This document shows, piece by piece, positions 740 to 31,228 of a DNA stretch of 64,000 nucleotides. How positions within the stretch are numbered: position 1 is the stretch's first letter; every line of letters begins with the position of its first letter. Origin of the DNA: Prostheceraeus crozeri. Its lineage: Eukaryota; Platyhelminthes; Polycladida; Euryleptidae. The stretch lies in assembly GCA_907163375.1 (NCBI GenBank), contig CAJQUW010007784.1, positions 558,001-622,000 of the forward strand, written 5' to 3'. The notes beneath the pieces were generated by a model. The model was not told the DNA's origin. It searched no databases and was given only the letters and a program-made list of their open reading frames with translations. Made by a program: the position numbers and the translations under genes.

Positions 740-2132
740 TTAACTCTTCATTCGGAAATGGAGTGTGATACTTGTCACAGCATCTTTATGAAAAGGAATC
801 AACGCACCAGCATCGTCATATCGTCATAAATTGCAATATCAATTTGTGGGATGTAGTTTCATTTCAGCTTTGTATAATGCACTTTCTTGAAAGTATGCTC
901 AGATAAAATACTGCAGCTTTTTGGCTGGTATGGTATCATTGCTAGCAATGGAGCTTCAACATCTCCCACACGTACATCTTCACCAATATTGGAATATATC
1001 TGAAAATAGTTAATACGACGCGATAGTGACATGTCTGCGCTAGCTTTGGTTACAGTACCACTTTTAAAGATATTTTGATCAAAACGCAAAATGTCCATTA
1101 GAGTTTTATCCATAATTAGTTCAATACCTTTTCCACTTATAGTGAGAGAAAAAACACCTTCTTTTTCAGAAAATGAAATTTGTTGGTCATTAATCACTTC
1201 ATTCAAATAATCTACAACCAATTTAACTGAAGTAATAATGCGAGGCATCAACACTCTTGTTTCATGTAAGACACCACCGAAAGGCTCTACACACTTTCTG
1301 TATAAAGATACGGCCCATTCTGTATCAAATTGATTTGACCTTTCACATGGTAAATGTTGCATATCAAATTTTCCATGAACAGCTGCTGAACGATGTCGTA
1401 AGAACTGATGAAAATCTTTTGAACAAACTAATACTAGATCTTCATCATTTAATTTACTTATTGCAATATGATTAGATGATTTGATATATGTCAATGTTGC
1501 CACTTGTTTACCATCAACTCGAAGGAGATAATTAAATTTCTTCAATAATGTTTCAGGAGTCATGTTTGTCTTTCTTGGCTTAATCACAATCTTCTTCACC
1601 AACGTCTTCTCATTTTTTGGAATAAGATCTACATAATAAGCTTCCTCTCGATATATTAACTGTTTATGACCACTTATGTGGTAATTAACGTTAAAATTAT
1701 CATAGCTTGTTAAGGCGCTAGCGAGGTAACCTAAATCATTTCTTAAACTTGGACTTAAACCAACAGTCCAATCTTTCTCAACTACATGATGTACATAATT
1801 ATGATCATCATTGTGCGGAGTAAATTGGACAATATGTTTACACGCTTTATTCAAGAAATCATATATAAACTTTTGACATGATAAGAGATCTGTGGAATGT
1901 ATACTCGGCAGCCCTTTTCACATTGGTAAGCAGCTGTGCGTCTCATATTAATAGTCATCACCTCATGATCAAAAGTATAGACACAGTTGCTATGAACAAG
2001 TTGAGTGACACCCACTTCCCAATTTCCATTTAGCTGTTGTGCATGATCAATGGGAGTAGAAAAGAGTGCGGCTCGATTACTAGCAAATCTATTTGCAGCC
2101 GCATTGCTAAGCAAAATATGATAAAACGACAT
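740..2132 (-). pseudogene. Penton-like minor capsid protein, broken
   Basis: The gene starts at ATG 2132 with the LLSN...LNGNWEVGVTQ N-terminal pattern of Polinton minor capsid proteins, and later shows the VGDVEAPLLAMIP block that matches VGDIEAPLLRTFP in element B. Three lesions are visible: a frameshift near 1855, a TGA at 859-861, and a frameshift caused by a perfect tandem duplication of an 8-base unit at 812-819 and 820-827. Past the last lesion the conserved tail (a DAGALIPF-type motif followed by a TLHFR-type end) is still readable to a TAA at 740-742. The start lies 36 bp from the divergent plus-strand gene at 2168, so the two share a very short promoter region. Confidence 0.75.
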
Positions 2133-2167
2133 TTTTATATTGCTGATCTGCAACTTTGCATAACATC

Positions 2168-2524
2168 ATGAAGACTTGGATTTTGGACTCTCTACAATAT
2201 ATCAGAGTTGATCGTGATGGAAACGTACATTTCAAAAATTCTCATGGTCATACATCAAGAGTTATTACATTAACATGGCGACAATTTGTCAACCTCAATG
2301 ATATCATGAGGGATTTGGAATATTTTGAAACATTAAGATTCATCTCCTTGGGTGATCAAGTTTGGCTTCAACATTACAGAAATGAAATTCAAATCTGCCT
2401 TTCTCATTCCGCAAACTGTTTCTCATTTCGCAAATACAATTGGGAGAAGTATAGAAGATACATACATCGCTCCATCATGACATTTATTCGTCGTGAGTTC
2501 ATCGCCCTACTATGCAAATCTTAA
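2168..2524 (+). CDS. Small protein of unknown function, possible PC4/Sub1-like fold (paralogue 1)
   Basis: A 118-residue protein from ATG 2168 (an in-frame TTG lies 12 bases upstream). It is a paralogue of the next gene: both share WxLDSLQ at the start, a DGNV.FK/DRNVYFK strand, then W/Y-R-x-F-x-x-L-x-x-IM-x-DL-x-YF, a G-x-x-(V/I)WL strand and a WEKY(R/K)-x-x-(I/V)HRSI helix near the C-terminus. The beta-strands followed by an amphipathic helix with a conserved Trp, occurring twice, recall the PC4/Sub1 transcription coactivator domain, but this is a guess from pattern, not a firm match. It is the first of three same-strand genes ending in a TBP homologue, which supports a role in transcription. 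Intact. Confidence 0.6.
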   Translation: MKTWILDSLQYIRVDRDGNVHFKNSHGHTSRVITLTWRQFVNLNDIMRDLEYFETLRFISLGDQVWLQHYRNEIQICLSHSANCFSFRKYNWEKYRRYIHRSIMTFIRREFIALLCKS

Positions 2525-2546: not shown

Positions 2547-2897
2547 ATGAGTTGGAAATTAGATTCCCTACAACGTATTGAAACGGATCATGATCGAAAC
2601 GTTTATTTCAAAGATTCAACTGGAAATGTGAGAAGAGAGTTTGCTTTATCTTATCGTCATTTTCAATCTCTACATCATATCATGAAGGACTTGAAATACT
2701 TCTATATGAAAAGACATTCACGTATTGGAAATCGCATCTGGTTGCGCGTCAACAAACGGCGAATTCAACTCTATCATTCCCAACTCCATACTAACTTCAC
2801 ATTTCATCAAGGTAGTTGGGAAAAGTATAAAAGGAAGGTACATCGCTCAATTTACTCATTTTTTCATCATGAAGCGCCATCGCTACACCATCGTTAA
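2547..2897 (+). CDS. Small protein of unknown function, possible PC4/Sub1-like fold (paralogue 2)
   Basis: A 116-residue intact protein beginning 22 bases after the stop of its paralogue. It has the same layout: WKLDSLQRIE, DRNVYFKDSTGN, HHIMKDLKYF, GNRIWLRV and SWEKYKRKVHRSIYSFF. It is rich in Arg, Lys and His (basic), consistent with nucleic-acid binding. Its last 29 bases overlap the start of the TBP-like gene in another frame. Element B carries one degraded copy of this family in the same place relative to its own TBP-like gene, so the association is conserved. No function can be assigned with certainty; the PC4-like interpretation is inference. Confidence 0.6.
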   Translation: MSWKLDSLQRIETDHDRNVYFKDSTGNVRREFALSYRHFQSLHHIMKDLKYFYMKRHSRIGNRIWLRVNKRRIQLYHSQLHTNFTFHQGSWEKYKRKVHRSIYSFFHHEAPSLHHR

Positions 2898-3414
2898 CAT
2901 TCTCCGTCGCTTCAGACTCTACACCAAAATCGATCTCACAACATTACACCAACACCTTCCAAACAGCAAGTATTACCCAGGCCGACCTCAAATGTTAGTG
3001 GTGAAGATGAACAATTCACGGAATCTTCAACTCTTCCCAAATGGGACTGTACAGATTCTCGGCGCCCTTTCTCATTCATCGGCGCAGTCAATGCGCTTAG
3101 AGCTACAGAGACTACTACGTCGGATATGGAAGAGGGAGAGGTGTGTGATGTCGAATCTGACTGTGGACAATATGGTGATCTCTACTCAATTGAGTGAAAG
3201 TGTATCATTTTTGAAGATTCGTACCAGCAGTTACAATTTGTGTTATGAACCCGAACTTTTTCCTGCATCTCTCATTAGTTGTTGGTTACCTGTGCATGTT
3301 GCAATCTTTCATAATAGTAAAGTGATCATTACTGGACTAAAATCTCATGTACAAGCAAATGTGATCCTAGACTATCTCATCGAGTATGTACGTAGCCAGC
3401 GGATTGTAAAATAA
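2869..3414 (+). CDS. TATA-box-binding protein (TBP) homologue encoded by a Polinton-like element
   Basis: A 181-residue protein from ATG 2869, the length of one TBP core. Two direct repeats are visible. Repeat 1 (about residues 7-87) has TIVN, KIDLTTL, YYPGRPQMLVV and LFPNGTVQILGA, in the order of the TBP repeat. Repeat 2 (about residues 97-178) has LTVDNMV, YEPELFP (identical to the eukaryotic TBP motif) and AIFHNSKVIITGLKS. Of the four DNA-intercalating phenylalanines of TBP, three are kept (F56, F131, F147); the fourth position is P40. TBP bends TATA-box DNA to start transcription. The gene overlaps the preceding gene by 29 bases and is uninterrupted. A host origin by capture is likely, but it is far more divergent than any cellular TBP I know. 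Confidence 0.85.
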   Translation: MKRHRYTIVNILRRFRLYTKIDLTTLHQHLPNSKYYPGRPQMLVVKMNNSRNLQLFPNGTVQILGALSHSSAQSMRLELQRLLRRIWKRERCVMSNLTVDNMVISTQLSESVSFLKIRTSSYNLCYEPELFPASLISCWLPVHVAIFHNSKVIITGLKSHVQANVILDYLIEYVRSQRIVK

Positions 3415-3440: not shown

Positions 3441-3902
3441 TTATTTCAAATCATGATAGAACTTACAAATCATTTTTTCATTAGAGGATGGATTACATGA
3501 AAAGTTTTGAATAACAGATACAAATCGAGATACATGTAAACGTTTTAAGATGAAGTACAGTACAAAAGCACCACACGCTGATGAAAGTGGATGTTGTAGT
3601 ATGCGTTCATTTCGCTGATATTGACGCGTATGTTTTCTCAACTACTGCTGTGTTGGTATATTTGGAGGATGAGCAAGAGAGTCAAATAGTTCACCACGTC
3701 GGTCTTCTCCAATAAAGATCGCTTTCCAATGCTCACCGCCTAAATTCTGCGAATGAGTGTTTAGCACAATAAAGATGGGATAGTGATTTATTGCAGGTGG
3801 TAAGGTATCGAGCGAATAGACATTATCGAAAGCTTTCAACGTCGCTTCGTCTGCATTACGCTGTACTTTAGTTTTAATATCGTCAGCAGTCTACCAACTC
3901 AT
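3441..3902 (-). pseudogene. Adenovirus-type cysteine protease, broken by two stops
   Basis: The frame begins at ATG 3902, sharing one base with the capsid gene's stop (TAATG overlap). It has the maturation protease hallmarks: a catalytic-His block GGEHWKAIFI, an LFDSL block with the acidic residue, and the nucleophile block SSACGAFVLYFI. It would be 153 residues, against 154 in element B. An in-frame TAG sits at codon 4 and another at 3642-3644, between the LFDSL and Cys blocks. In Polintons this protease is expected to process capsid and core precursors. The rest of the frame is open, so the damage looks recent. Confidence 0.8.
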
Positions 3903-5185
3903 TAACGATTATACTGAAGAATCACGTCACGATACTTTGTAATTTCAATATTTGAATCGAAGACTGCATAAATTAATACATTGATCGTCTCAGGTAGTGT
4001 TCTTTTGAACGTCAAATCCAAACGAATATTATGAGGCACGTTCGCTTGACGATAGGGTGTACTAATATCGCTGTCAGCAGTCAAATCAAATGCATAAATA
4101 GTATATCCACTCTTAAACTCTTTCATAGTCAGTCCGTTGGTGTCATCCGTATTGTAAAAGCCAAAGACATCCATAAAATCAACATACGTGTAACTCCGCA
4201 TAAATTGATCCGAAGCAAAATCTGGTTTGTAGGTTGGACTAGGACGACTCACTCCATTTACACGTAAAGCAATTTCACTTAACTGATTGTGTTTAAAATG
4301 GAAAGGATTCTTCTTTATATTACCATTAAATGCATCATTTTCAACCATTGCCACCATGAGGAGCTTCGGTGCTTCCGATGGAAAGAGGCCATCTTTCATG
4401 AAACTCTTTTGATCTTTAGGAATTGTAAAGGTGAGAAGCTTTGTATGCCGAATGGGGTAAATGGCATTTTGGCGGTTAAGACCTTCAGCATGCCCTCTAA
4501 TTACACTTGGATTCGGTACTACTCGACGAATGTAAAGTGCAATATCTTCCACATGAATTCTAAAATTGTCAACTTTAGCAAATGCATTCAGCGCAAATTC
4601 AGGCTTATTCAATGTCAGCTTGAGTCGCATGCTGGTATTACAGAGTAAAAACGTTGACTGTCTAAAGAAGTCTAAATTCAGCGGACCATATAGCGGACAT
4701 ACTTTACTATCTTTAATCATAGCAGATCGCTTTACAAAGCCACTGTTTGTTTCAGCATCAAATTTTCCTGCTTCATCTCTGTAACATCCCATGGCTTCCA
4801 TATGACTTTTTTGTGCTGCTGGATGAAACTGTGATACATGATTGAAATATGATTTATAGGGATAATCGCTTTGACCACCTTCCACCTGCTGCTCTCCAAT
4901 CGTTAGAGAAACATCGCGAAGTAATGTAGTCAATGGTAAATTGTTCAGTCCAACTTTATGTGTATCGTCAATAGCAGTTCCATCTGCTTGCTGAATTCTA
5001 AACCTCAAATCAACCATCGCATAACTCAAATCTATGTAGTCATCACTACCACCAGGAATAACAAATTCAATGGGGCCAGCATTCTCAGCTGTTCGAGGAT
5101 GATAATCTACAATACTTGAACTAAGAATATCTGTCTGTATGCCTTGTTGATCAAACAAACAAAACCCGGAAGTTTTACACTCCAT
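3902..5185 (-). CDS. Major capsid protein, Polinton/adintovirus type (F54H12.2-like family)
   Basis: An intact 427-residue protein. It has the family's features: an acidic FCLFDQQ N-terminus, IVDYHPRT, the GPIEFVIPGGSDDYIDLS block, RDVSLTIGEQQVEGG, YPYKSYF, DFFRQS, and a C-terminal GFYNTDDTNGLTM...FDLTADSD section. In invertebrate genomes this family is annotated F54H12.2-like and is taken as the double-jelly-roll (hexon-like) capsid protein of Polintons; assignment as major rather than minor capsid is from family knowledge. Element B carries a homologue of exactly the same length (427 codons) with three stops. The gene sits between the pX-like gene (2 bases upstream) and the protease (1-base overlap), the usual virion cluster. 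Intact length suggests recent activity. Confidence 0.8.
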   Translation of the reverse strand: MECKTSGFCLFDQQGIQTDILSSSIVDYHPRTAENAGPIEFVIPGGSDDYIDLSYAMVDLRFRIQQADGTAIDDTHKVGLNNLPLTTLLRDVSLTIGEQQVEGGQSDYPYKSYFNHVSQFHPAAQKSHMEAMGCYRDEAGKFDAETNSGFVKRSAMIKDSKVCPLYGPLNLDFFRQSTFLLCNTSMRLKLTLNKPEFALNAFAKVDNFRIHVEDIALYIRRVVPNPSVIRGHAEGLNRQNAIYPIRHTKLLTFTIPKDQKSFMKDGLFPSEAPKLLMVAMVENDAFNGNIKKNPFHFKHNQLSEIALRVNGVSRPSPTYKPDFASDQFMRSYTYVDFMDVFGFYNTDDTNGLTMKEFKSGYTIYAFDLTADSDISTPYRQANVPHNIRLDLTFKRTLPETINVLIYAVFDSNIEITKYRDVILQYNR

Positions 5186-5187
5186 GA

Positions 5188-5643
5188 TTAGAAGTTATGG
5201 CAGCGTCGTCGTTTAGCGCCTGATGAATGATTAGAGCCTCTACGACGTTTGCGTGAATGCCTTTTGACTGAAGATCGCACCTTACCAGCTCCGCGATGTT
5301 TCCTCCTTCCTTTATTCATTCGTTTAGGCGATTTCTTTCCTTGAGTAACACCAGCAAAGGTCTGCTTCAATGTTTTTAAACCGCGTTCCTTCCCACGATT
5401 CAACAAACTGCTCTTAAAACTTCTACCTCTGGAAAGATCACTAGCAACATCACCAGCAAAGTCAACGGCATTACTTAAAACATTTCGTTTTAAAGATCTT
5501 CCGACATTGGATATGAGAGGTGCTACAACAGATTTCAGTGCACCAAGTATGCTACCTCCACGTTGGCGGCGAGCGCCGCTGTAAATTTGTCCTCCACTAC
5601 TTACATAGGAGGGTCGTGAATAAAATGAGGCAGTTGGATTCAT
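5188..5643 (-). CDS. pX/mu-like basic core protein
   Basis: An intact 151-residue, strongly basic protein. The N-terminal third has YSRPSYVSSGGQIYSG followed by RRQRGGSILGALKSVVAPL, an amphipathic and glycine-containing stretch like the adenovirus pX/mu and pVI-type precursors. The last 50 residues are almost all Arg, Lys, Ser and His (KRRRGSN, AKRRRC), as expected for condensing packaged DNA. A homologue of the same layout is at 26362-26844 in element B. Position just upstream of the capsid gene agrees with the virion gene cluster. It could be a target of the neighbouring protease; no cleavage site is claimed. Confidence 0.75.
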   Translation of the reverse strand: MNPTASFYSRPSYVSSGGQIYSGARRQRGGSILGALKSVVAPLISNVGRSLKRNVLSNAVDFAGDVASDLSRGRSFKSSLLNRGKERGLKTLKQTFAGVTQGKKSPKRMNKGRRKHRGAGKVRSSVKRHSRKRRRGSNHSSGAKRRRCHNF

Positions 5644-5684: not shown

Positions 5685-6951
5685 TCACTGTCGATCACTT
5701 AGATGAAAGATGTCGGCACGACGCATCCAAGAGTTCATACTTGAAGGATAACCAGTCCATTTAACAAGACACCATTCTTCACCTTGCCGTTTTTTACACC
5801 GAATGATTTTCTCTACCAAATATGTTTCACTTTCAGTGACTACCTCAATCTCATCGCGGTAAAAGCTACCCTCAATTTCTTCATTATCGTAATCTTTCAA
5901 CTTGTAGGTGGTCGGAGAGTCTTTTTGATCAATCCTTGATACTGTAAATACCTCCTCTGTCCAATTCGGAAGGTACCCTTTGGCAAAAACACTTTTCACT
6001 TTTGAGATACGAACTTTATCACCAATTTTCACATCACTTTTCACATGAGTGCGTTTACGTTGGAATGATTCGCGCACTTTATCTACATTGTCAGCAGTTA
6101 CATCTACTGGTCTGAGTCCAATAGAACGATGGATAGAGTGATTGTAGGCATGGAGTGTATCTTGTAGAACCTTTGTCCAATTTTGTGTCAAGTTCGCAGT
6201 AAAATGTCGCCACAAGCGATTTTTTAATGTGCGATTAAAACGTTCAACGAGTGTAGCTTTATAGGCACTCTTTACACTAAACAACTCAATGTCATGCCTC
6301 TCAAATAATCTTCTCACATGCTGATTTTAAAACTCTTTTCCTTGATCACTCTGAATTCTTTTTGGAATGCGACCTTCTCGAAAAATTGTTTGGAATGCTT
6401 TTGCTACTCCTTTCCTTTCTTTAGTTTTTAAAGGTTGGGCCCACGCATAACGCGAGAAAATATCAATGACGGTTAAAATAAAATTATTGCCCGAGTTATG
6501 TTTTGAAATGGAGGCAACATCACACAAATCTGCTTGCCACTGTTCATCGATGTCATGAACAATATAATGGCGGGTGCGGTACTTCTTTTTCGCTTGTTTG
6601 TGGAGTGTATAGGTAGCCTGACCCTTTAACCATCGTTTCACTTGTGATTGTGGAAGACCACTCGCTTTTGATTATTTCTTGATCGATGCAAATCCTGCCG
6701 GATGTTTTACATCATAATAGATTGACTTCAAACGTTCAGTCGATGACGACTGACTCTTTTTCCACCTTCTCATCTTTTTGCTTTCTTGCCTTTCTACATT
6801 TACAACAACTGCAGCATTTAGCTTTAGCGGTTTTGCGATCCTGTTCACATTGCTTAGGAGTTTCATTGTGAGAGCTGGCGCAGCAAGTGCAAGTGACAAC
6901 GACACTCACCTCTGGCGGCTCATTACATGGCAAGCAACACATCTGCTTCAT
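5685..6951 (-). pseudogene. Retroviral-type integrase with zinc-binding region and chromodomain, broken
   Basis: An rve-family integrase. From N to C: a Cys-rich leader (CCLPC, CTCC, CCSCCKC), the KHPAGFAS and VKRWLKGQATYTLHK region, the first catalytic Asp in QWQADLCDV, the second in SDQGKEF, the catalytic Glu in LVERFNR, and a C-terminal chromodomain (VEKIIRCKK...VKWTGYPSSMNSW). Three lesions: a frameshift near 6740-6790 after the Cys-rich leader, a TAA at 6672-6674, and a TAA at 6327-6329 between the second Asp and the Glu. The last removes the catalytic Glu, so this copy is dead. The chromodomain would direct insertion to histone-marked chromatin. Confidence 0.85.
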
Positions 6952-6952
6952 A

Positions 6953-7645
6953 TTAATAGTCTGAGAACATGTATTTCTTGGGAGGAGCAGTTTTACGTTT
7001 TCCTTTTACTAGTTTTAGTGGTGGTGTAGATCTACGTCGAGTTCTTCCTCTTGTTTGCTTAGTGAGTGTGGGAAGGGATGTAGCAGGTGACGTCTTAAAC
7101 CAATTTGTTGGCATTTTCATCGTCTGAAGCATTGGAGTAGTAGCCACTGTTGAATCAAGTTCTTTCAATGTCTCATTATTCAAAGCAAATTTTGGTACAT
7201 TATGCTTTTTCAATAGTTTAAGAAAGTATGAACAACCAGGTGGAACATAGCCCTGACGGCGCTTTCTACGTGTCGCATACTGAATCAAGTCTTCATAACG
7301 TGAAGCATCAATCACTTTATTTTCATCTGTAATGATTTCTCCTCTATCATTTACATTGAGATGGGGTTCAATACTATTGAAAAGAGATATGGCATGTGCG
7401 CGAGATGCTAAAGGTGTAGCAGTCGATATAGAGTCACGCATCTTATTCTTCAAGCTTTTCAATTGCTCAACAGTTTCCGATTGTAATAATACAGCACGAT
7501 GTGGATCTTTGATGTGAACATTTTGCTGATAATCTATTTCTTTCCTATACATTTGATTTGCAAGAGGTTGCTTTACTTGCTGCATGGCAGTCAATTGTAC
7601 ATATTCATCCTGAGGTATAACAATCATGCGAGAATAAGAACTCAT
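6953..7645 (-). CDS. Conserved Polinton-type protein of unknown function
   Basis: An intact 230-residue protein starting MSSYSRMIVIPQDEYVQL. The same start (MSYSKMVVIPQEEYVQL) and a shared NDRGEIITDE / NERGEIIDE block occur in the element B homologue at 29760-30412. The middle contains YEDLIQYATRRKRR and the C-terminal 60 residues are basic (TRGRTRRRST, KGKRKTAPPKK). It is placed between integrase and ATPase in both elements. Its ATG overlaps the ATPase stop by 4 bases (ATGA). Possible structural or DNA-associated role; no known domain was recognised. Confidence 0.65.
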   Translation of the reverse strand: MSSYSRMIVIPQDEYVQLTAMQQVKQPLANQMYRKEIDYQQNVHIKDPHRAVLLQSETVEQLKSLKNKMRDSISTATPLASRAHAISLFNSIEPHLNVNDRGEIITDENKVIDASRYEDLIQYATRRKRRQGYVPPGCSYFLKLLKKHNVPKFALNNETLKELDSTVATTPMLQTMKMPTNWFKTSPATSLPTLTKQTRGRTRRRSTPPLKLVKGKRKTAPPKKYMFSDY

Positions 7646-7935
7646 AGTTTGTAGATAATCATGGGAGTTTTCAAAATATCACTTCGAAATCTAAATTCTT
7701 CCGGACACTCTTGCGTAAAGTCAATGAATAAGTAACCGTGTGGTTTTTCAGTAGCTGCTTGAAAAATTTCAATTAAGGCTTTTGATCCTCTGGGTGCAAC
7801 TTGTCGCGCTAAAATTTCAAATTGACTTTTATCTCGCGGATTCTTGAAAATAGCATAATAGTGTGTATTCAGGTTTCGTGTACGAGCTTCTTTTCCATCA
7901 GGAAACAAATTTTGTGTGATATAGATGATAAAGCA
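7642..7935 (-). pseudogene. Packaging ATPase (FtsK/HerA type), C-terminal remnant
   Basis: About 95 codons match the last part of the intact ATPase at 30452-31087: TQN-F-DGKEARTRNLNTHY, IFKNPRDKSQ, then KPHGYLFIDFTQECPEEFRFRSDI. The N-terminal half with the Walker A and Walker B motifs is missing. Upstream of 7935 the sequence turns into an AT-rich repetitive stretch (repeated ATGATGTGCTTATA at 7940-8000) and then into unrelated genes. The break is therefore a deletion or replacement rather than a point lesion. Without the ATPase this copy could not package DNA by itself. Confidence 0.8.
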
Positions 7936-7980
7936 CCTTTTATGATGTGCTTATATGATGTTATATGTGCTTATATATGC

Positions 7981-8307
7981 TTATATGTGTTTGCTTATGA
8001 TGTGCAAAATATCATCAATGATTAGATTGGGAAATACTTTCCTCTCCTTACCAGGATTATTACGAAAGATGCGTATAACATTGAAAGCAGCTAACCATCG
8101 TTTAAAGTCAATAAGAAGAGCAGTCTCACAAGAAAAGCCATAGTCTTGCAAATATTTCAGATTAAGTCCATGAATGTGTTTTCTCGCCCATTGATCAACA
8201 TTGGGATTGCAGTTGGCATGTTGATGATAGACACTGACAATCTGATATTTCCAATTGTTCATAGCAATAGCACTGAGCTACTGTACAGGTTCACCCTCAC
8301 AATCCAT
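7981..8307 (-). pseudogene. Unknown protein, one in-frame stop
   Basis: An open frame of 93 codons (from ATG 8262), extended upstream in the same frame to ATG 8307 across one TAG. Features: HQHANCNPNVDQW, YLQDYGFSCETALLIDF, and FNVIRIFRNNPGKE. I do not recognise the family. It occupies the place where the N-terminal half of the packaging ATPase would be expected, next to a small RING-like frame. It might be an accessory virus gene or inserted host sequence. Confidence 0.35.
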
Positions 8308-8359
8308 AAAAATGATGATAGAAGCCTAAAACGGAAATTTACACATCTAAGGAAACGTT

Positions 8360-8560
8360 CTATAACATATTACAAAATGAAGAATTACATCGATGCTTTT
8401 CACGACAAAATACGCAAATGATATGATGGCAACGAAGAAGTAAAATGTATCTAATAAGACCACGTCTACGACACTCAAAGCACATAAGCGAATTGTCATA
8501 GGGTAGAGTTAGGAAAGGACTAGTAATTCTCTTTCTTTGATTTGCGTTTTGATGCAGCAT
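8360..8560 (-). CDS. Small RING-like Cys/His protein
   Basis: A short frame, likely start ATG 8560 (or 8485), overlapping the end of the upstream gene. Metal-ligand spacing is RING-like: MCFECRRRG, then LRCHHIICVFC, then HRCNSSFC at the C-terminus. RING fingers act as ubiquitin ligases or protein-interaction modules, and small viral RING proteins often counter host defences. There is no match in the same place in element B, though element B has a different Cys/His protein at 14221-14511. Short and unconfirmed. Confidence 0.4.
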   Translation of the reverse strand: MLHQNANQRKRITSPFLTLPYDNSLMCFECRRRGLIRYILLLRCHHIICVFCREKHRCNSSFCNML

Positions 8561-8915
8561 TCTTCTCCGACTTGCGCTTCGTACCACTGCTGTTAAGGAT
8601 TTGATCAATTATGTCGTCCACGTTGGGTGGTTCTGGAATATATAGGATGGATTCCATATGCATGGAGAGAGAGGCTATTTTATTATCCTTGTGCCGACCA
8701 TAATATAGCCCATTCACTTTGAAAAGGATATCCCAAGTACCTTCTCCGAGCTCGTCGCATGTGATGGGTGTTGAATGATCTCCCTCCTTCTTATAGTAAG
8801 TGCACCAATGTGATACCGGTAGGCAAATTTGATTACCATCCCAAATCTTTCTATAGGGAGTATCCTTGTCATCTCTCGCCTTCCACTCTTGAGCAAGAGG
8901 AGTAGGAATGTCCAT
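8520..8915 (-). CDS. Conserved accessory protein, possible OB-fold/ssDNA-binding type
   Basis: 131 residues from ATG 8915. The centre holds GTWDILFKVNGLYYGRH, then KIASLSMHM and a proline-containing ILYIPEPP segment, followed by a Lys-rich tail (KRKSEKN, KRKSKK). Element B has the same layout at 31229-31736 (LVHVTGLYIGSHG, KVASLQMKV, LVYEPLP, then Lys-rich tail). The alternating strand pattern and basic tail suggest a nucleic-acid-binding, OB-like protein, but this is inference. It starts just after the stop of the spliced gene and in the same frame. Confidence 0.5.
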   Translation of the reverse strand: MDIPTPLAQEWKARDDKDTPYRKIWDGNQICLPVSHWCTYYKKEGDHSTPITCDELGEGTWDILFKVNGLYYGRHKDNKIASLSMHMESILYIPEPPNVDDIIDQILNSSGTKRKSEKNAASKRKSKKENY

Positions 8916-8927
8916 ATTTAATGTCAC

Positions 8928-9294
8928 TTACTCCTCAATAATATCAAGTTGGTGGCGAATGTACGGACTCACGGGGATCAGTATGTAGTCCCCATACTGA
9001 TTGTGCATTATCTTGACATCCGTGGAAGGGAGCATTCCCGTTTGGAGTACTATGCTATGATCGTCATAACGCAAGACTTGTTTAAATTTACGCTGTAGCG
9101 GTGTAGGATTATGTACCTTGGTTGTTTCTTCCACTGGCCTCAGTTGTAGATGATCTGATCGTAGCGAACCTTGTAACGTTTGACCGCCATTTTGTCCTAC
9201 TAGTGCAGCAGATGGAGTAGATGCCTGAAAATGAAAAAGATTGTATTAAGTTTACGTTCAAGGGAGGAGAGGGAGGAAAGTAGCGACTTACCAT
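8928..9294 (-). CDS. Spliced small gene with a 67-bp intron directly after the start codon
   Basis: Exon 1 contributes the ATG (9294-9292), followed at once by GTAAGT (donor). The acceptor TTTTCATTTTCAG ends at 9225, and exon 2 (9224-8928) continues in frame to TAA. The joined product is 99 residues, with PTPLQRKFKQVLRYDD and HNQYGDYILIPVSPY. The intron is 67 bp (9291-9225). The TATA box at 9397-9404 would place the transcript start near 9370. The element B counterpart is probably 31734-31964. Function unknown; this is the first gene from the right end of element A. Confidence 0.6.
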
Positions 9295-9396
9295 TTTAGT
9301 TGGATAATAGAATAGGGAACTAGAAAGAGAGAAAATGTGCGTCCGTCACTCGTGTGATTCAACGATGGAATGATTCTCACTGTGGAAGGCTCGCTA

Positions 9397-9442
9397 TTTA
9401 TATAGAAATGCTTGATTCTCATTGGATGATGATCCTCATTGG
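9397..9442 (-). promoter_or_regulatory. TATA box with two CCAAT boxes, right-end promoter of element A
   Basis: On the minus strand TATATAAA (9404-9397) is preceded by two CCAATGAG-(A/G)-ATCA repeats whose CCAAT cores are at 9442-9438 and 9425-9421. The spacing from TATA to the spliced gene's ATG (about 100 bp) is normal for an RNA polymerase II promoter. Confidence 0.6.
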
Positions 9443-9640
9443 ACAATAACATCAAACTGATTCCAAATCTGGCCTCCGTTTACCAATCCGAGCCTTCATT
9501 CGCCCGCTGGAGCTGTTTCTTGGGAAATTCTAACTCTGTCGCTTTTCGTCAATCTTCCAAAATCTTAAATGGCGTCTCACATCTAAACGAAGACAGATAT
9601 GAACAAGCCGTTTCTTTCACTGAATTTGTCTCACTCTTAG

Positions 9641-12447: not shown

Positions 12448-13800
12448 ATGGCAGCGGCACTATCAAGTAGTACCAGGCACTCAACACGCCGAGTGCAGCC
12501 AGTCCGTCGCTATGGTTTTGATTCCGATAACAGTGAAGACGATTCGGACAATGAAGATACGACTTTTGATCCTCCCCATATTACAGATGAGTCGTCTTCT
12601 GATACCGATTCTGATGGCAGTGAAGATCTAGAAGCGAGTGCCGAAGATGGGTGGACTATCATCGAGCCGACAGATGTCAGTGATGCAACTAACTTTGTGT
12701 TTCTTGGAGAGTGGGGCTGGACAGATACGGAGATTGACAGTGCCGAATTTACTGTGAGAGATTACATAATCAAATTTCTACCAGACAATTTGTTTGAAAC
12801 CCTCACAAAATGGGTGAATGACCGTGTCCTTATTGAAAATGTTCGAATGATGGAGGAAGAGCAAGAAGAAATGCACTGGAAAAATGTTACTATTTTAGAA
12901 GAAGACATTTGTTGGTATTACTCTTCTAATGGGCATCGTAAAGAAACCCACAATCAGATCTTACTGGCAAACCGAAGAAATGATGACAACTCCCTTCTTT
13001 TTGCAACCAAAGTGTCTGAGTCGTGACAGATACATCGCTATTCTGAGATCCCTGAGATTCTCGGATCCATTTGCGGTGGACCCATCCAAGAAGGAAAGCA
13101 GACTTAGTGGTTTCTTCTCTATTGTGAATGATCTTTGTTCTCAGTACCGACCACTTCAATCTCTGAGTTTGGATGAAAGTCTTGTATTATTCAAGGGAAG
13201 GCTTTCAATCAAGATGTTTATTCGGACGAAAAGATCCAGGTTTGGTGTGAAGTTATTCATTCTTGCAGATAGAACGGGATACATGATTTATTCTCAAATC
13301 CATGTTGGCAAGGATACCTGTTATGAAACCGGCGAGCCTGGTACTGAGGCGCTTTCGAATAGTGAAAAGATAGTCGTTCGATTACTTTGAAAGGCTGACA
13401 TGCTTGACAGGGGATACGTCCTGAATATAGACAATTGGTTTACAAGCTTGCGGCTGATAGAGTACCTTCTTTCGAGAAATACGGGTGTTCGTGGAACAGT
13501 CAGACCGCAAAGAGGAATTCCAAAAATTCTTATTCAAAAGAAACTGCAACCTGTGTCATCGGCATTCGCTGAAAAGGACCGAATAATAGCGGTAAAATTC
13601 TGTGACAGAAAGGATGTTTATCTGATGTCCACGTGTGACAATGCTTCTCTGGTGCAAAAAGAAAGGATTTCCAAGGGCAATGTTCGAACCAATGTGCTCA
13701 AGCCATCAATTGTCGAGAATTACAATCAAGAAATGGGAGGGATAGATCTCACAGACCAAGTTAATCGTCAATACAACTGCGCTAGTAGTGAAAACTGTGC
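12448..13800 (+). pseudogene. piggyBac transposase (PGBD4-like), N-terminal two thirds, broken
   Basis: Starts at ATG 12448. The N-terminal 90 residues are acidic and Ser-rich (DSDNSEDDSDNED), as in piggyBac proteins. The catalytic Asp motifs are visible: SLDESLVLFKGRLS, NIDNWFTS, and QEMGGIDLTDQ. LLMGIVKKPTIRSYW and CLSRDRYIAILRSLRFSD also match the family. Lesions: a frameshift between about 12840 and 12905, and a TGA at 13388-13390. The homology ends near 13790 (NRQYNCASSENCA), before the remaining C-terminal part and the Cys-rich domain. Same strand as the C-terminal fragment at 32703. Confidence 0.85.
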
Positions 13801-13804
13801 CCTA

Positions 13805-13945
13805 CTTGCGAGGGATAGGTACATGGATGGGTACATGTATAATTTAGTGTTATCAATAGGTACATGGATAGGTACATGTATAATTCAGTGTTATGAATAG
13901 GAACCTGTATGAGATCTGTTTTACTGGATAGGTACATGTGTTCGG
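13805..13945 (+). repeat. Minisatellite with GGATAGGTACATG units
   Basis: GATAGGTACATG is repeated at least four times, within a longer unit of about 40 bases that ends in TACATGTATAAT(T/C)(T/C)AGTGTTAT. It lies exactly where the transposase homology stops and may mark the left boundary of the inserted element. No inverted copy was found near 32.6 kb. Confidence 0.6.
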
Positions 13946-19389: not shown

Positions 19390-19420
19390 GGCTTGCTAAT
19401 TTCAATCCTCATCAATAATC

Positions 19421-22400
19421 ATGGTTGTCTGTACCAAGTGTGGAAAAGTATTTACTCTCATAGGCAATTTGCAACGTCATGAAAAATTTTGTAAGTTAGG
19501 AAAAACGTATCAATGTAGCAAGTGTCCATATAAGACGAATAGGATAGATAATCTTAAGAGGCATAAACTTGTATGTAATAATAAACCGAATGATAGCATA
19601 ACAAAGTTAAATTCAAATAATCAAAATAGATCTACTTCTAAGCCAACAACCAGCGCTTCAACTAACATACAAAACTTTATGCAATACTGCTCTCGGTGTG
19701 GTAAAACGTATAACTCTATAAGTAGATTTCGACAGCATATGAATGTACATAATACAAATAGTGAGATAAATATGCATAATAACTATGGAACTGTTAGTCT
19801 CAGCGAAAGCGCACTCAATGGCCATGAACGTGTGTATGATATCACGCCAACAACACCTACTGTGGACATAACATCATTCTTAGAAAGCATGCGTTCCATG
19901 TTAGGGAATTTAGTGCCTGACTTACTAAGGAGCTATCAATTGCGCGGTCGTCTGATTGCACAAATTCGTTATGTCCGTTCTAATCCTCAAGAAGAAGAAA
20001 CTTTTCTCGCACACTTTACCTCATCATCCTCAAACTATATTTATGACTATGATGCTTGGTTTTAGGATCATCTAAATAGTCTAATAAATCATATTGAAGC
20101 CTTCACAAAAAAGGGTAGCAATTGGATTATAAATGATGTACAAAATATAGAGTTCAATGTAATAACAAGTCCAATACTGTCAGGTGGACAATCATTTCCT
20201 CTACCAAAGAAGTTAAAAAACTCTAAAGCTGTCATTAATGTTAATTCAAATGCAAATGATTGCTTCATATATGCAGTTTTATCAATATTGCATTATAATG
20301 AAGTACCTTATTAAAGGAATGAAGTAAAATCATATAGTAAGTGGACATCTGAGCTAAATATGGAAGGCATTTCCACACCAGTATCAATCAAAGATATTTC
20401 AAAATTTGAGAAAAATAATGATATTAAAATTAACATTCACTTTTATGAAAATGGACTCAAAGGTGTTCGTTACAATAGTAACTTTACTGGTAGGCAAACG
20501 GTTAATATTTTGCTAATTCTAAACAATGGAGCAGCACACTATTGTGGAATTCCAAAGCTGTCAAGATTGTATAGGAGAACTTTAAAAAGACATAAATACT
20601 TCTGCGAAAGATGCACTCAGTCATTCACATATAAGACAACACTAGAACGACACTTCCAGTTTTGCATTCGAGGAAAAGCACAAATAGAAAAAATGCCATC
20701 GGATCTAAAAGTACTAACAAGTAGCATGGAATATCAACTAAGTCCTCCTTTAGTAATTTATGCAGATATAGAGTGCTACATTGATAATAAAATACATAAA
20801 CCTGCGGCCATTGGAGCTTATCATGTCTGGCATAATGCCCTTCAATCGAAATTTGAAAACAAGTATTACCTCTTTGAAGAGAAAATTGCACAATTAGTTT
20901 CTTGCACCACTTAGAAACTGTAGCCAAAGACCTATATGACAACCAATATGCAACAACTAGGCACCCAATGACACTGTCAGTGGATGAAAAAGCAAGCCAT
21001 GAGAATGCAGAATGTTGCAACAAATGTAAATCGAAATTCAGCGATGAAGTCATAAAAGTTCGCGATCATGATCATATCACCGGACGATATAGGCAAACAT
21101 TATGTAGGAAATGCAATCTCCGGTTAAGACTTAACAGACGGGAGCTCCCCATATTTTTCCACAATTTTAAAAATTATGATAGTCACATCGTTTGCTATAA
21201 AGCGATTGGAAGAATGAAATGTTGGAAATTAGATGTTGTAGCAGCAACTGCTGAAAAATATATACCTTTATCCCCCAGTGTCCCTGTAAATGAATACAAA
21301 GGGAAGACAGTATACTTTAAACTAAAATTCTTAGACTCATATCAATTTCTAAGTGCATCCTTGAGTGAATTAGCCAAGGGCTTGCAAACGTATGAGCATG
21401 TAGAGACATTAAGGGTAGAATTTCCACAATTAAGTGATAATGTTTTATATCAGAAGGGAGTGTTTCCATATTCATACTTCAAAACCTTAAACACGTTGAC
21501 GGGAGACTGTCTACCACCACAATTTGAATTCTATAATGATCTTACTCGTGAGCACTGTTCCGATAGTGAATATGAACACGCTAACAAGGCATGGATTGAA
21601 TTTAATTGTAGCACATTTGGTGATTACATGCTGGCATATCTGAAGTTAGATGTTTTATTGTTGGCAGACATATTTGAAGTGTTTAGAGCATTGAGTCAAC
21701 GTGAGGATGAAGTCGACCCTGTACATTTTGTCAGTCTCCCACATCTTCGCTTTCTTTACCTCAGCACTAAATTTCTCTTCCAATGATCCCCAACACTACA
21801 TACAAGATGAAAATATGTACAATCTATTTGAACGAGGAATTAGAGGGGGTATGACTTTCACCAACATTCACCGAGCGCGTGCACGCATTGAAGAATTAGG
21901 AAATAATACACATGAAAGTCGACATTTGACCTACTTAGATGTTAATAACCTTTACGGTTCTTCACTCAGTAGGAATCTACCCCACTCAAATTTCAAATGG
22001 TTGAATGAAAGTGAATTAGATAATTTTTTAAATGAAGAAAATGTTCAAAATATAGATGATGATGGTGAAATCGGCTACATTTTTGATTTAGATTTAGAGT
22101 ATCCTGCAGCCATTCATGATGACACTGCCGATTTCCCATTAGCTCCAGAAATGCAGATGATTGAAAAGAGAATGTTTTCACACTATATGAAAAATCTATA
22201 TGAAAAAGTAAGACCAAATACACATTTTTCTTCTATCAAGAAACTTCTGCTCCATCAATTTGATAGGGAAAATTATGTAGTCCACTGCTCAATTTTAAAA
22301 TTTTACTTGACCATGGGCATGAGAATCAAGAAGATTCATAGTGGCATAAAATTCACACAAAAGCCCTGGTTAAAAACATACATTGATATGAACTCTCAAA

Positions 22401-23281
22401 AGAGGGCTCAATCAAACACTGACTTCGAAAAGTCATTCTGCAAATTGAAAACTAATTCTTTATATGGTAAAACAATGGAAAATGTAAGGAGAAGGAAAAA
22501 ATTTAAACTAGTCAACAATGAGAAACAACTACTGAAATTGTCAAATCATCCTCTCTATGTTCAACACAAAATATTTGATGAAGATCTGGTTGGTATGGAA
22601 ATGTACAAACCTTCAATAGTTTTAAATAAATTAATATATGTTGGTCAAGCAGTACTTGACTATAGTAAGTTGGAAATGTATCAATTATATTACAATGATC
22701 TAAAAGGGTGTCCACTGATAAATAGAACGCGGTTTTGCGGACGTGATACCGACAGTTTCTTCCTATGTTTATACACATCACCATCTGTCCGTCTGGAAGA
22801 TATACTTCCATACTTCGGTGAAAAGTTTGACTCTTCAAACTATGACAGTCATCACCGACTATACTCAACTACAAACAAAGCTAGATTAGGTTGTTTTAAG
22901 GATGAGTCTGCTGGAAAGTTGCTTGAGAAAATGATCCTACTAAAACCCAAAATGTATTCAATGAAATATCTAGACTCTACGAATCATAGCATCAAACGTG
23001 CAAAAGGAATTCAGAGAGCAGCAGTTAAAAAATTGAAACATAATGACCATAGGAGTGTCTATTATAGTGAGAATGATACAACTGAAGATATGACAATTAT
23101 AAATTCAAAAAATCACATAGTTAGCACAAAATCATTTAGGAAGCGAGGTCTTTCACTTTGGGAGGATAAGCGCTGTTGGCTGGATAAAAATTTATCATTA
23201 CCATATGGACACTACAGCCTAGGTCTTCCCCCACCGTCGAAGAGAAGGAGATGCCTTCCTGTCACAGGTGATGTAGAATAA
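19421..23281 (+). pseudogene. Protein-primed-type DNA polymerase B with N-terminal C2H2 fingers, broken
   Basis: About 1,285 codons. The N-terminus has C2H2-type fingers (CTKCGKVFTLIGNLQRHEKFC, CSRCGKTYNSISRFRQH). Exonuclease motifs: VIYADIECYI (Exo I), FFHNFKNYDSH (Exo II) and YLKLDVLLLADI (Exo III). Polymerase motifs: A in YLDVNNLYGSS, B in KLKTNSLYGKT, C in RDTDSFFL. A VRDHDHITGRYR block is also typical of Polinton PolB. Lesions: TAG 20063-20065, TAA 20312-20314, a frameshift between about 20860 and 20915, and one near 21760-21790. Everything else is open to TAA at 23281. It would replicate the element from a protein primer. Confidence 0.9.
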
Positions 23282-23589
23282 GTCTAAATTAAGAAAAACA
23301 AACAATACAATATTCCACTTGTAATAGATCTTGCGATTGCTGCATCTTCCGACATGTAGCAACACTTACTAATACATAAGTAGTCTTACTAAAATTGAAA
23401 TTTCTACATCTTTCCGATATGTAGAAATGATTACTAATAAATAGGTAGTCCTAATGTAAATGAATATGTGAAGAATTTGTACTCAACATCATTCCGATAT
23501 GTTGAGCTAATAAAATAACAAACTTTAGGCAAACATTAAACCTAAATTTGAAACATAGCTTTCGGAACATGCCTCATTAAATTAGAACA

Positions 23590-23940
23590 TGGAAACTTAG
23601 TGACGTTCAAAACGTTCACATAACAAATTCTAAAAGAATAGCATTTCGTCATTCAATAGCAAATAGTGATCGAAAACATCGTGGCGTTTGTATTAGTATT
23701 GACTCATTGCCTTCACTGAAAGACTTTGCGGATCTCATTGACAACCATAAGACTCGGATCAAGATTCCTCTCGATGACAAGGTATGGATAAAGTGTGATT
23801 CATCAGTCAAACTATACGTCTGTTCATCAAAACGGGAAGATGTTGAACATCGATTTTTTCGTTTCAGTGACGTCACATGGGAAACCTTTACAAGGGAGAT
23901 ACTACCACAGATAACGTCATTCATTAAAGATGGAGGACAT
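23590..23940 (+). pseudogene. Degraded copy of the PC4-like small protein family
   Basis: An open frame beginning WKLSDVQNVHI, with DDKVWIKCD and FRFSDVTWETFTREILPQITSFI, matches the layout of the two proteins at 2168-2897. The nearest ATG (23589) is one base out of frame and a stop precedes the frame, so the start is damaged. Its normal end is also lost, since the frame runs on to 24111 over the next gene. It directly precedes and overlaps the TBP-like gene, as in element A. Confidence 0.55.
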
Positions 23941-24499
23941 CAAACGGTTGGAAGTTGTAAATCGGATGTTAACTACAAAAGCGAAGTCAAAACTCAATCT
24001 ACAAGAGATCGAGAGGAATATACCCAACCGAAAACAATGGTTACTGATAAAACGCAAATTGAAGCCGACAACGAGCTTACATGTTGGAAGACCCTCAATG
24101 TTAACATGTAGGATTCAGAGGAAGGATAAATCTCTCACTATCCTATTCTTTCCAAGTGGAACAATCCAATGTATTGGAAGGGTCATGGAGGGTGATCTCT
24201 GATATCTACACTTTACTTTGGAACATTTACTTGGTGATTCATTATCTGATTGGGAAGTGAAGACAATGACCGTGTTATGTGAATTACACTATCACTATGA
24301 CTTCCGTAAAGTTACATCATCACATAATCTAACTTATGAAGTGGAGTTATTTCCAGCAGCTCAATTGACTAACTGGCATCCATATCATGTTCATGTGTTC
24401 CATAATGGAAAAATTGTGATAACCGGCATCAAAGACATAAGTGATGTACCTCCCATCATATGTGATTTGAAAAAACGTTTCATGAAAACCAAATTGTAG
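23930..24499 (+). pseudogene. TATA-box-binding-protein homologue, second copy, one stop codon
   Basis: 190 codons from ATG 23930 with one TGA at 24200-24202. Repeat 1: RLEVVNRML, KLNLQEIERNIPN, GRPSMLTCRI and LFFPSGTIQCIG. Repeat 2: TYEVELFPAAQL, then HVHVFHNGKIVITGIK. These correspond one-to-one with the element A protein and with the two TBP repeats. Intercalating-type Phe residues are kept in FFPSG, ELFPA and VFHNG. The sequence is strongly diverged from the element A copy, so the gene family has been kept through a long separation. Confidence 0.8.
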
Positions 24500-24606: not shown

Positions 24607-25071
24607 TTATTTCAAAACTGTTTGGACATATTTAGTAAGAATTACATCATTTTTATCACAGTTTTTTGAAAATAGTTCTAAAGCACTTTTACAGTTATTT
24701 TTCAATGGTCTCTCGTTGACAAAATAGAGTACAAAGCCACCGCACATTAGAGATGTATTACTTTGAAGTGGGAACGATGTCACTTTCCTAACAGTCCAGG
24801 AGAGCCTGTTCATCCATAATGCGATATCATGTAAACGAGGTTGATTAAGAGAGTCAAAATATTCGGCAACTTTATATCGATTGATGTATGCAGCAATCCA
24901 ATGTTTTCCGGGAAGCTTGTTGGTATCCGTATTGATGATAAGCGAACAAGGATAGAAAGGAATTGAATCAGGTAAATTATCTCTAGAAAAGACATTGAGA
25001 AATATTGTCTTGGAGTAGGGATGAGCTTTCCTCATTTTCCTCAAGATTTCTATGTTGCTTAAGTTACTCAT
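24607..25071 (-). CDS. Adenovirus-type maturation cysteine protease
   Basis: An intact 154-residue protein. Catalytic residues by family pattern: H57 in PGKHWIAAYI, D73 in AEYFDSL, Q103 before the active site, and C110 in SLMCGGFVLYFV. This triad order (His, acidic, Cys) is that of the adenovirus protease family. Its ATG overlaps the capsid gene stop by 4 bases (ATGA). It would cleave capsid and core precursors in particle maturation. In contrast to the element A copy it has no stops. Confidence 0.85.
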   Translation of the reverse strand: MSNLSNIEILRKMRKAHPYSKTIFLNVFSRDNLPDSIPFYPCSLIINTDTNKLPGKHWIAAYINRYKVAEYFDSLNQPRLHDIALWMNRLSWTVRKVTSFPLQSNTSLMCGGFVLYFVNERPLKNNCKSALELFSKNCDKNDVILTKYVQTVLK

Positions 25072-26351
25072 CTCTGATAGCTGACAGTCACGTCTCTCAT
25101 TCTTGTTATCTCAACTTAGCTATCATAGATAGCATAAATGAGACAAGTAATTGTTTTCTTCAAAGGTGACTCAAATGATACCTCCAGTCGTAGATTTCCA
25201 GGCTTTGTAACTCCTACGCTTTCACCACCTAGATCTGGATCTGCTGTCAGGTTGTACATAATGAAGAAGTAGCCATTCTTGTACATATCCATTGTAATTC
25301 CATTTCAATCATCTGTATTAAACATGTTGAGGTCGGTGAAAGTAGAACCATATTCACGTGCGAATTTACCATCTTTGAAATTAGGCTCATATGCTTTGCA
25401 AGATACAAATTTCCCATCCTGATAGAGTGCTAGTTTGCTAACATTAAAGTGTTGGAAATTGAATGGATTCTTTTCAAAAGCACCAATGAATGCCTCATTT
25501 TCCACAAATGTGATAAACACCGCCTTTGGCATTGCAGTGGGAAAAAGATTTGGGTAGGCATGTGAGGATGATCCTGCATCAATTGTGAAGTTTGTCAACA
25601 CACTGTGATTAACTGGATATATTGCATTGTTTTTCCTCAATCCTGTCGCATGTTCGTTGATGACTGACGGGTTCATTGTTACTCGCTTTACATTGAGCAT
25701 GGCATTACTTATGTTGACTTGATAGTTTGTAGCTCCAAAAGCCATTAACGCGAACTCAGGATTTGCAGGAATAAATTTTATTTGCATTTTAACCTGTGAT
25801 AGCAGATATCTAGATTGACGAAAGAAATCAAATTAGACGGGTCCTTTCAAGTATAATTCCTTTGAATCCGCTGTTAAATCCATTCGTCTTTTCAACCCTG
25901 TATTTGAGACATCATCAAATTTCCCTTGCTGATCATCATACCACCCAGAAACTTGCAAGTGTGACTGTTTAGCTTGCTTTTGAAATTGAGTCATTGCATG
26001 TATATATGCTCCATATGGATATGCTCGATCCCCTCCTTCAATCTGTTTGTCATTCAATATTAGATACACATCTGAGAAAAGACTGGCAATAGGAAGATTT
26101 GCTAATCCCACTTTATCCTTGGATGAATCGATATTTGTACCATCAGTCTTCTTAATTTGTATACACAACTCTAAATCAATGGATTGACAGTCAATATAAT
26201 CTTGAGGATTGGCAGGTATATCAAACTGAATAGGCTGCTGGTTACCATCGATATTTGTTGTGGGGACTATGTCTACAATTGTTGAGGAGATGATGTCTGT
26301 CTGATGAGGGGGAGAATCGAAGAAACACAAAGCCGAATTGATACTCTGCAT
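25068..26351 (-). pseudogene. Major capsid protein, Polinton type, three nonsense codons
   Basis: A 427-codon frame, the same length as the element A protein, with no frameshift. Shared motifs: ALCFFDSPPHQTDIISSTIVD, QPIQFDIPANPQDYIDCQS, YLILNDKQIEGG, AYPYGAY, the DFFRQS position and FNTDD. In-frame stops: TAA 25833-25835, TGA 25305-25307, TAA 25116-25118. The reading frame is otherwise clean, so all inactivation is by point changes. Confidence 0.85.
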
Positions 26352-28465: not shown

Positions 28466-28505
28466 GTTAAACTCATATATGGAAGAAGTCACATGCTATA
28501 TTAGC

Positions 28506-31087: not shown

Positions 31088-31228
31088 CTTATAATTCCAT
31101 TAACATTAAACTCATTATCCCGCTAATTTTGCTTAGAACAACAAAACAGACACATGTTCCAGATCACGTTTATTTACATTCAGAATAGAAACTTTCAAGT
31201 TACATTTACAAATTAAAACATTTACAAA

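Follow-up and report, generated by a model that had tools for sequence, protein, structure and literature searches.

Cellular TATA-binding proteins (TBPs), both eukaryotic and archaeal, are composed of two direct repeats that form a full-length saddle, with an Asn pair, a Phe pair and a Thr in repeat 2, and a YEPELFP stirrup, all of which are shared by the viral TBP (vTBP) described here. vTBP differs from them in having Pro, Gln, Gln and Leu at the positions of F99, L114, V122 and T124 (i.e., the yeast TBP numbering, which, together with the roles of the residues, we take to apply to the vTBP family) and one residue fewer at two places. TRF2/TLF, a gene of bilaterian animals, is a TBP paralogue without the canonical TATA-contact residues. 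The TRF2-like row of the host in our alignment is changed at F116, F190 and F207, whereas vTBP keeps all three. Viral proteins with a TBP fold are found in beta- and gamma-herpesviruses (i.e., BcRF1 of EBV, ORF24 of KSHV and MHV68, and UL87 of HCMV). In passages of the report on these proteins, BcRF1 is described as a TATT-binding protein at late promoters that acts with five partner proteins, as binding TATA and TATT alike in vitro, and as one of the herpesvirus TBP-like proteins that are ~10% identical to TBP and found within a six-protein complex (PMC4893493). Set apart from these proteins by their descriptions, vTBP consists of an ordinary TBP domain whose identity is evident from its sequence, and it may be likened to them only in its proposed working, not as a member of their group. 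In one survey, an excerpt of which gives these values, a TBP gene was present in 59% of mirusviruses and in 0% of Nucleocytoviricota (PMC10132985). Compared by description, mirusviruses are like the present case in that a DNA virus carries a TBP gene, and unlike it in belonging to another virus phylum.

The window, i.e., the whole stretch of 64,000 nucleotides analyzed here, contains at 2869-3414 (+ strand) an intact gene for vTBP. The preliminary description had proposed a two-repeat protein of 181 residues at this position, and the translation is indeed free of stops and matched by PF00352 (TBP) over two stretches (E = 3.6e-20, 72 bits against a cut-off of 22.9; Pfam), with repeat 1 at about residues 6-85 and repeat 2 at about residues 97-175. 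Each of the 35 distinct PDB sequences that matched vTBP at E ≤ 10 was a TBP or contained one, as judged from names or entries. The top match (1.7e-12) extended over residues 97-175, full-length matches (about residues 7-160) started from 1.5e-10, and the profile of the vTBP family reached 4.7e-24 at best. The structure predicted for residues 1-181 was that of the TBP saddle (VIA-align, which only re-ranks the matches of Foldseek itself); together with the PF00352 match, this upholds the proposed likeness to TBP and excludes a match to a short motif only. All 20 members of the vTBP alignment matched PF00352 at E ≤ 0.001. vTBP is a bare TBP domain of 181 residues that lacks an N-terminal extension. 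The motif residues named earlier are all in place, with YEPELFP at residues 126-132, Phe at 56, 131 and 147, and Pro at 40. Three of the four intercalating Phe of TBP are retained, so the complete set of four is not found in vTBP. By homology and fold vTBP is a member of the TBP family, from which canonical TATA binding does not follow.

To place these residues in the family, 102 proteins of at least 150 residues, from a TBP-family set of 121 (P0001-P0020 and P0036-P0136), were aligned to cellular TBPs. In repeat 1, the F99 position was Pro in 101/102 vTBPs, and Pro 40 of the window vTBP is not a private mutation. The L114 position was Gln in 93/102, the V122 position was Gln in 102/102, and the T124 position was Leu, Phe, Met or Ile in 102/102. 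F116 (102/102), R98 (101/102) and N69 (90/102, with 12 gaps) were kept in the same repeat, and V71 (kept in 6/102), S118 (13/102) and R105 (49/102) were often changed. The residues kept in repeat 2 included N159, V161 and F207 (each 102/102) as well as F190 and T215 (each 101/102). E186 (101/102) and E188 (102/102), presumably stirrup residues that face TFIIB, were also kept. Changes in repeat 2 affected S209 (kept in 4/102), V213 (8/102, mostly replaced by Ile or Met) and R196 (42/102), and the L205 position was Ala in P0001. Judged from the alignment, repeat 2 of the vTBP family is largely held, while not untouched, and repeat 1 appears rebuilt. That F99 and T124 were lost, with the matching F190 and T215 kept family-wide, does not look like decay or recent capture. 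Gln at the V122 position need not mean a new specificity, because the TBP of M. jannaschii has Asn, which is likewise polar, at that position.

The vTBP gene belongs to a Polinton (element 1) whose left end lies outside the window. Upstream of vTBP are genes for two small basic proteins, PC4L-a (2168-2524, +) and a second copy, PC4L-b (2547-2897, +), which has an early stop in the window; their family is without a Pfam or PDB match, and "PC4L" is a label only. A PC4-type identity, which had come up as a hunch, was rejected, as the best Pfam value (E = 0.014) was for another family and not above chance, and PDB gave only E = 2.5. In L032, L034 and L036, PC4L-b reads past the stop found in the window and, in a different frame, extends across the initial half of the vTBP gene; in the window, the PC4L tail frame and the part of vTBP that it overlaps fall within 2547-3197. 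Relatives have acidic ends resembling one another (MEEGE, MEDVEEGE). A PY-type gene (859-2132, -), split in two frames, is divergent from PC4L-a. Convergent with vTBP is a protease fragment (3642-3890, -) homologous to 24607-25110, and on the same strand lie a candidate for the major capsid protein (3902-5185, -), with a weak double jelly-roll match (PF21738, E = 0.015, below the cut-off) and a position kept in 9 loci; a pX-type basic protein (5188-5643, -), taken from the ORF list and the inspected loci; an integrase with chromodomain (5685-6671, -), broken in two frames (rve 5.2e-9, Chromo 2.7e-7); a conserved Polinton ORF, u6953 (6953-7645, -), seen in the inspected loci; and a packaging ATPase remnant (7642-7950, -), recognised by homology to 30452-31087. 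Homology to the PolB of the second element, which matches PF03175, places the PolB gene of element 1 in L037, just beyond the left edge of the window, and element 1 thereby has both PolB and the rve integrase with chromodomain by which a Polinton is recognised. The names PY-type and pX-type presumably follow Polinton usage, and the proteases at 3642-3890 and 24607-25110, neither of which had a match in Pfam, were named from what we take to be their motifs. Except for the integrase, the names in element 1 are thus tentative, being drawn from general knowledge, position and homology between elements, with Pfam support weak or absent. No terminal repeats were recovered: an inverted repeat of at least 40 nt was not found at 1-40000 of the window, and at 14000-36500 there were only short pairs.

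A second, decayed Polinton (element 2) occupies ~18.3-33 kb of the window and includes PolB, an integrase, capsid pieces, an ATPase and a TBP homologue. The latter (23930-24499, +) is interrupted by a single stop, and its two pieces (23930-24202 and 24203-24499), searched apart, matched PF00352 at 1.1e-4 and 1.4e-7. In both elements the TBP homologue follows a small basic ORF and is convergent with the protease, which in element 2 is at 24607-25110 (-). The element 2 PC4L (23570-24111, +) runs with its tail into the beginning of the vTBP gene, in a different frame. Three spaced stem-loop repeats at 23340-23505, with a loop around TTCCGA, precede the PC4L and vTBP genes of this element, and their arms covary (CTACAT/ATGTAG and CAACAT/ATGTTG). 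The PolB region (19400-23281, +) is in several frames (DNA_pol_B_2 5.6e-10) and is led by a C2H2-finger ORF (zf-C2H2 3.3e-12), which may be the N-terminus of PolB. Element 2 further contains an integrase with chromodomain (28506-29480, -; rve 1e-12, Chromo 1.5e-9) and a packaging ATPase (30452-31087, -; AAA_14 4.9e-5, below the cut-off). Elsewhere in the window are a piggyBac-like (DDE_Tnp_1_7) transposase broken into frames (12899-13900), hAT transposase remnants (42688-43383 and 48746-49543), a DDE_Tnp_4 transposase remnant below the cut-off (56824-57477) and a C2H2 zinc-finger ORF with three fingers (36324-37082), perhaps a host gene.

In the genome that contains the window (2.05 Gb), a PF00352 search, in which the best 150 rows of 10,982 candidates were scored, recovered exons of a canonical host TBP in two rows (123.7 and 54.3 bits) and a second host gene, which we take to be TRF2-like, in two rows (64.8 and 47.4 bits); the remaining rows among the matches listed had ≤51.9 bits. 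The TRF2-like gene, at 2532-2924 of L029, has several TATA-contact residues changed. As TRF2 belongs to bilaterians, the host is probably a bilaterian. Thirteen viral loci were inspected in pieces of ≤10 kb, 10 from the PF00352 search and three from a vTBP search. PolB was present in all 13, and a PC4L-type ORF lay by vTBP in 11; in lineages other than that of the window it matched weakly (E 2e-5 to 2e-4). The order TBP, protease (PRO), capsid (MCP), pX, integrase (INT) was found in nine of the 13 loci, which fall in three lineages, and the ATPase in eight of these nine; the putative protease, capsid and ATPase ORFs were in the order expected of a Polinton in the nine loci, with Pfam support below the cut-off or absent (capsid 0.015, AAA_14 4.9e-5, protease none). 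One of the nine, L025, has its PY-type gene on the other strand. The place next to the protease, where the preliminary description proposed to look for the TBP gene of Polintons, is thus occupied by it in these nine; in the other four (L024, L027, L028 and L035) vTBP and PC4L lie near PolB, with no protease or capsid within the 10-kb piece. L035 has two PolB matches on opposite strands (6124-9636), and contig C1944 has two vTBP matches on opposite strands, which looks like an inverted duplication.

The vTBP search of the same genome showed that the best 150 of 11,881 first-look candidates were full length, without a stop and 98-100% identical; these were ranked by similarity and represent the best end of the family. 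Twenty-three copies (L040-L062) were instead chosen by protease-side DNA. Thirteen of them had a vTBP match that was free of gaps and stops along the entire gene (one with its first base unaligned), four were gapped, four had a stop and two had the 3' part only. Differences shared by at least two copies were 6 synonymous to 4 nonsynonymous, versus 12 synonymous to 32 nonsynonymous or stop among those of a single copy (Fisher P = 0.067), with the four gapped copies contributing none. The single-copy differences look neutral, and the copies therefore appear to decay after insertion. The shared differences lean synonymous, which suggests selection on the active vTBP line, for which the family-wide residue signature is stronger evidence than the copy differences. 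A tally of 16 synonymous to 2 other differences was discarded as proof of selection, as its copies were ranked by protein similarity, some were counted twice (L003/L032, L005/L034 and L006/L033), and the divergent L026 and L036 were left out.

Beyond this genome, 19 relatives of vTBP were found by protein search and 180 at E ≤ 1e-3 by alignment search, the best 120 of which were listed. They derive from ena, lgn and jgi contigs of up to 24.7 kb, and one among the matches listed is named, as "TFIID TATA-box-binding protein". We infer that these wider relatives are Polinton genes. P0003 and P0010 have an N-terminal extension that, judged by eye, resembles the frame-shifted PC4L region seen in the window. 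P0022 (PC4L) and P0002 (vTBP) agree in the length of their longest contig (1771), which hints that they have the same neighbours. Viral contigs scanned with the vTBP alignment, a PolB piece, MCP, a PolB DNA pattern and one further alignment yielded no confirmed relative, nor did the genome contigs and phage records scanned, and the gene contexts thus come from the window's own genome. In a tree, 32 viral rows were split from 4 cellular rows with a support of 100/100, vTBP was on a long branch, and it did not group with the host TBP or the TRF2-like gene. P0001 was 27.3% identical to the TBP of M. jannaschii, within a range of 21-27% across the three TBPs aligned. As far as sequence comparison goes, vTBP represents a viral family separate from cellular TBPs.

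A TAWGCWA box precedes many of the viral genes. In the window it is found at 2108-2114 (+), 60 nt before the ATG of PC4L-a; at 2511-2517 (+), 36 nt before that of PC4L-b; at 2156-2162 (-), 30 nt before that of the element 1 PY-type gene; at 31129-31135 (-), 48 nt before that of the element 2 ATPase; and at 28502-28508 (-), 43 nt before that of the element 2 PY-type gene. Among 79 ORF starts (ATG, ≥80 codons) compiled by a mechanical rule from five lineages (elements E1 and E2, L022, L025 and L035), the box lay wholly within -60 to -20 in 12/79 on the sense strand (E1 3, E2 4, L022 3, L025 2) and in 0/79 on the antisense strand. Random stretches of the same elements gave a mean of 0.97 and a maximum of 5 (2000 draws; 1.05 and 6 in a repeat run of 500). 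The best exact 6-mer without a prior was AAGCAA (13/79 starts), whereas across 400 random sets no 6-mer exceeded 10. For the first, hand-picked 25 starts, four choices of region and length gave AAGCAA (a level reached by 0.75% of random sets), ATTAT (1%) and, twice, nothing (12% and 80%). TATAWA and TATTWA (each 4/79 vs. 2.4 expected) and the octamer were not enriched ahead of the viral starts. The related word YTAAGCW was not above the prediction of a Markov model in the elements overall, so what is enriched is the box at a given position and in a given orientation. Since E1, E2 and L022 had been inspected before the motif was defined, and the other two lineages have it in 3/28 upstreams (2 within -60 to -20, about 0.85 expected), the independent support is modest. 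With wider limits there were 14 box matches, those of L035 and of one start inside the element 2 PolB falling outside -60 to -20. These precede the ATPase (two lineages), PY-type genes (five starts, four lineages), pX, INT, PC4L-a, PC4L-b, two unknown genes (one in L035) and the start inside the broken element 2 PolB, which is probably not a real start. The box was absent before the vTBP starts and before most MCP and PRO starts, and pX, MCP and PRO may form one transcription unit.

We propose that vTBP is the element's own promoter-recognition factor, acting on the TAWGCWA box with host TFIIB and RNA polymerase II (Pol II), separate from host TATA promoters, a proposal whose chances we consider evenly balanced. 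The TBP homology, predicted fold, Polinton membership, shared signature, conserved neighbours and directional box are what has been observed; the binding of DNA, the recruitment of host factors and the reading of the TAWGCWA box by vTBP are what we infer. The vTBP saddle would sit on the box as on a non-canonical TATA-like element, ~25-50 nt ahead of many transcription units. Repeat 2, with its central minor-groove contacts kept, would anchor vTBP in the familiar way, and its stirrup residues, also kept, would recruit host TFIIB and Pol II, such that vTBP takes the place of host TBP on the viral genes. An altered half-site that tolerates G.C would be recognised by repeat 1, in which Phe, Leu/Val and Thr have given way to Pro, Gln and Leu. 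EBV BcRF1, with its TATT box, is a precedent for such a viral factor. Canonical TBP rejects G.C pairs, as the amino group of guanine meets hydrophobic residues, and two of these hydrophobic positions are Gln in vTBP. Given another half-site specificity of repeat 1, the viral genes could be activated jointly and independently of the TATA promoters of the host. The suggestion in the preliminary description that the element supplies its own TATA recognition is thus probably not literally correct, given that base-contact positions of repeat 1 (F99, L114, V122 and T124) are replaced in nearly all members examined and that TAWGCWA rather than TATA is enriched. The fullest version of the proposal, in which repeat 1 was rebuilt for the G.C step, TAWGCWA is read instead of TATA, host Pol II is seated on it, and this virus-own initiation evolved apart from that on the herpesvirus TATT box, is put forward only tentatively.

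The box could also have nothing to do with vTBP, being an initiator or the site of a host or viral factor, with vTBP reading ordinary A+T-rich DNA. We regard this as possible, if rather doubtful. CTAAG, which is part of the box, is itself enriched (8/79 sense vs. 1.2 expected), TAAG is the late initiator of baculoviruses, some copies of the box resemble the octamer ATGCAAA, and element 2 has a C2H2-finger ORF; against this, DTAAG is not enriched (9/79 vs. 7.1 expected), ATGCAAAT itself occurs in 1/79, and TATA is not enriched at these starts.

Were vTBP instead a decoy or regulator, bound to TFIIB, TFIIA or TAFs of the host without making use of viral promoters and thereby lowering or diverting host transcription during infection, its long branch, the loss of several DNA contacts in repeat 1 and the retention of E188 (102/102) and E186 (101/102), presumed to face TFIIB, would be accounted for. 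A pure decoy would not, however, need the base contacts of repeat 2 (Asn, Val, two Phe and Thr), which are kept in 101-102/102, and a directional non-TATA box precedes the viral genes; this role is unlikely. That vTBP is a roleless copy of host TBP recently captured by one element has in its favour only that the host has a TBP; both the tree and the signature common to the family refute it. The identity of P0001 to host TBP is 23.8%, whereas host TBP is 76.2% identical to the TBP of a microsporidian, and the family is present in several divergent lineages of this genome and in many contigs from elsewhere, so that such a capture is extremely improbable.

Polintons are considered to be related to adenoviruses, virophages and giant viruses, and to our knowledge general transcription factors are rarely carried by small mobile elements. 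The earlier remark that its author knew of no TBP described for Polintons or adintoviruses agrees with the open-access literature searched, in which we found no previous description, the founding Polinton papers and most subscription journals lying outside this scope. Neither TATA nor TBP was found in the main text of PMC11071296, PMC11071308 and PMC10120064, and PMC12220804 contains "tata" twice. Among the open-access texts joining TBP and Polintons are ones on the mirusvirus TBP and on the mirus-like elements of Cymbomonas, and a vertebrate review. A TBP of their own would explain how Polinton copies could be expressed as a unit, apart from host promoters. If vTBP does read the TAWGCWA box, a mobile element would possess a core-promoter code of its own. 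More than 100 TBPs combine a mostly conserved repeat with a remodelled one, which makes it possible to test directly what lets TBP reject G.C pairs, and the paired signature of vTBP and box would be a means to find and class Polintons.
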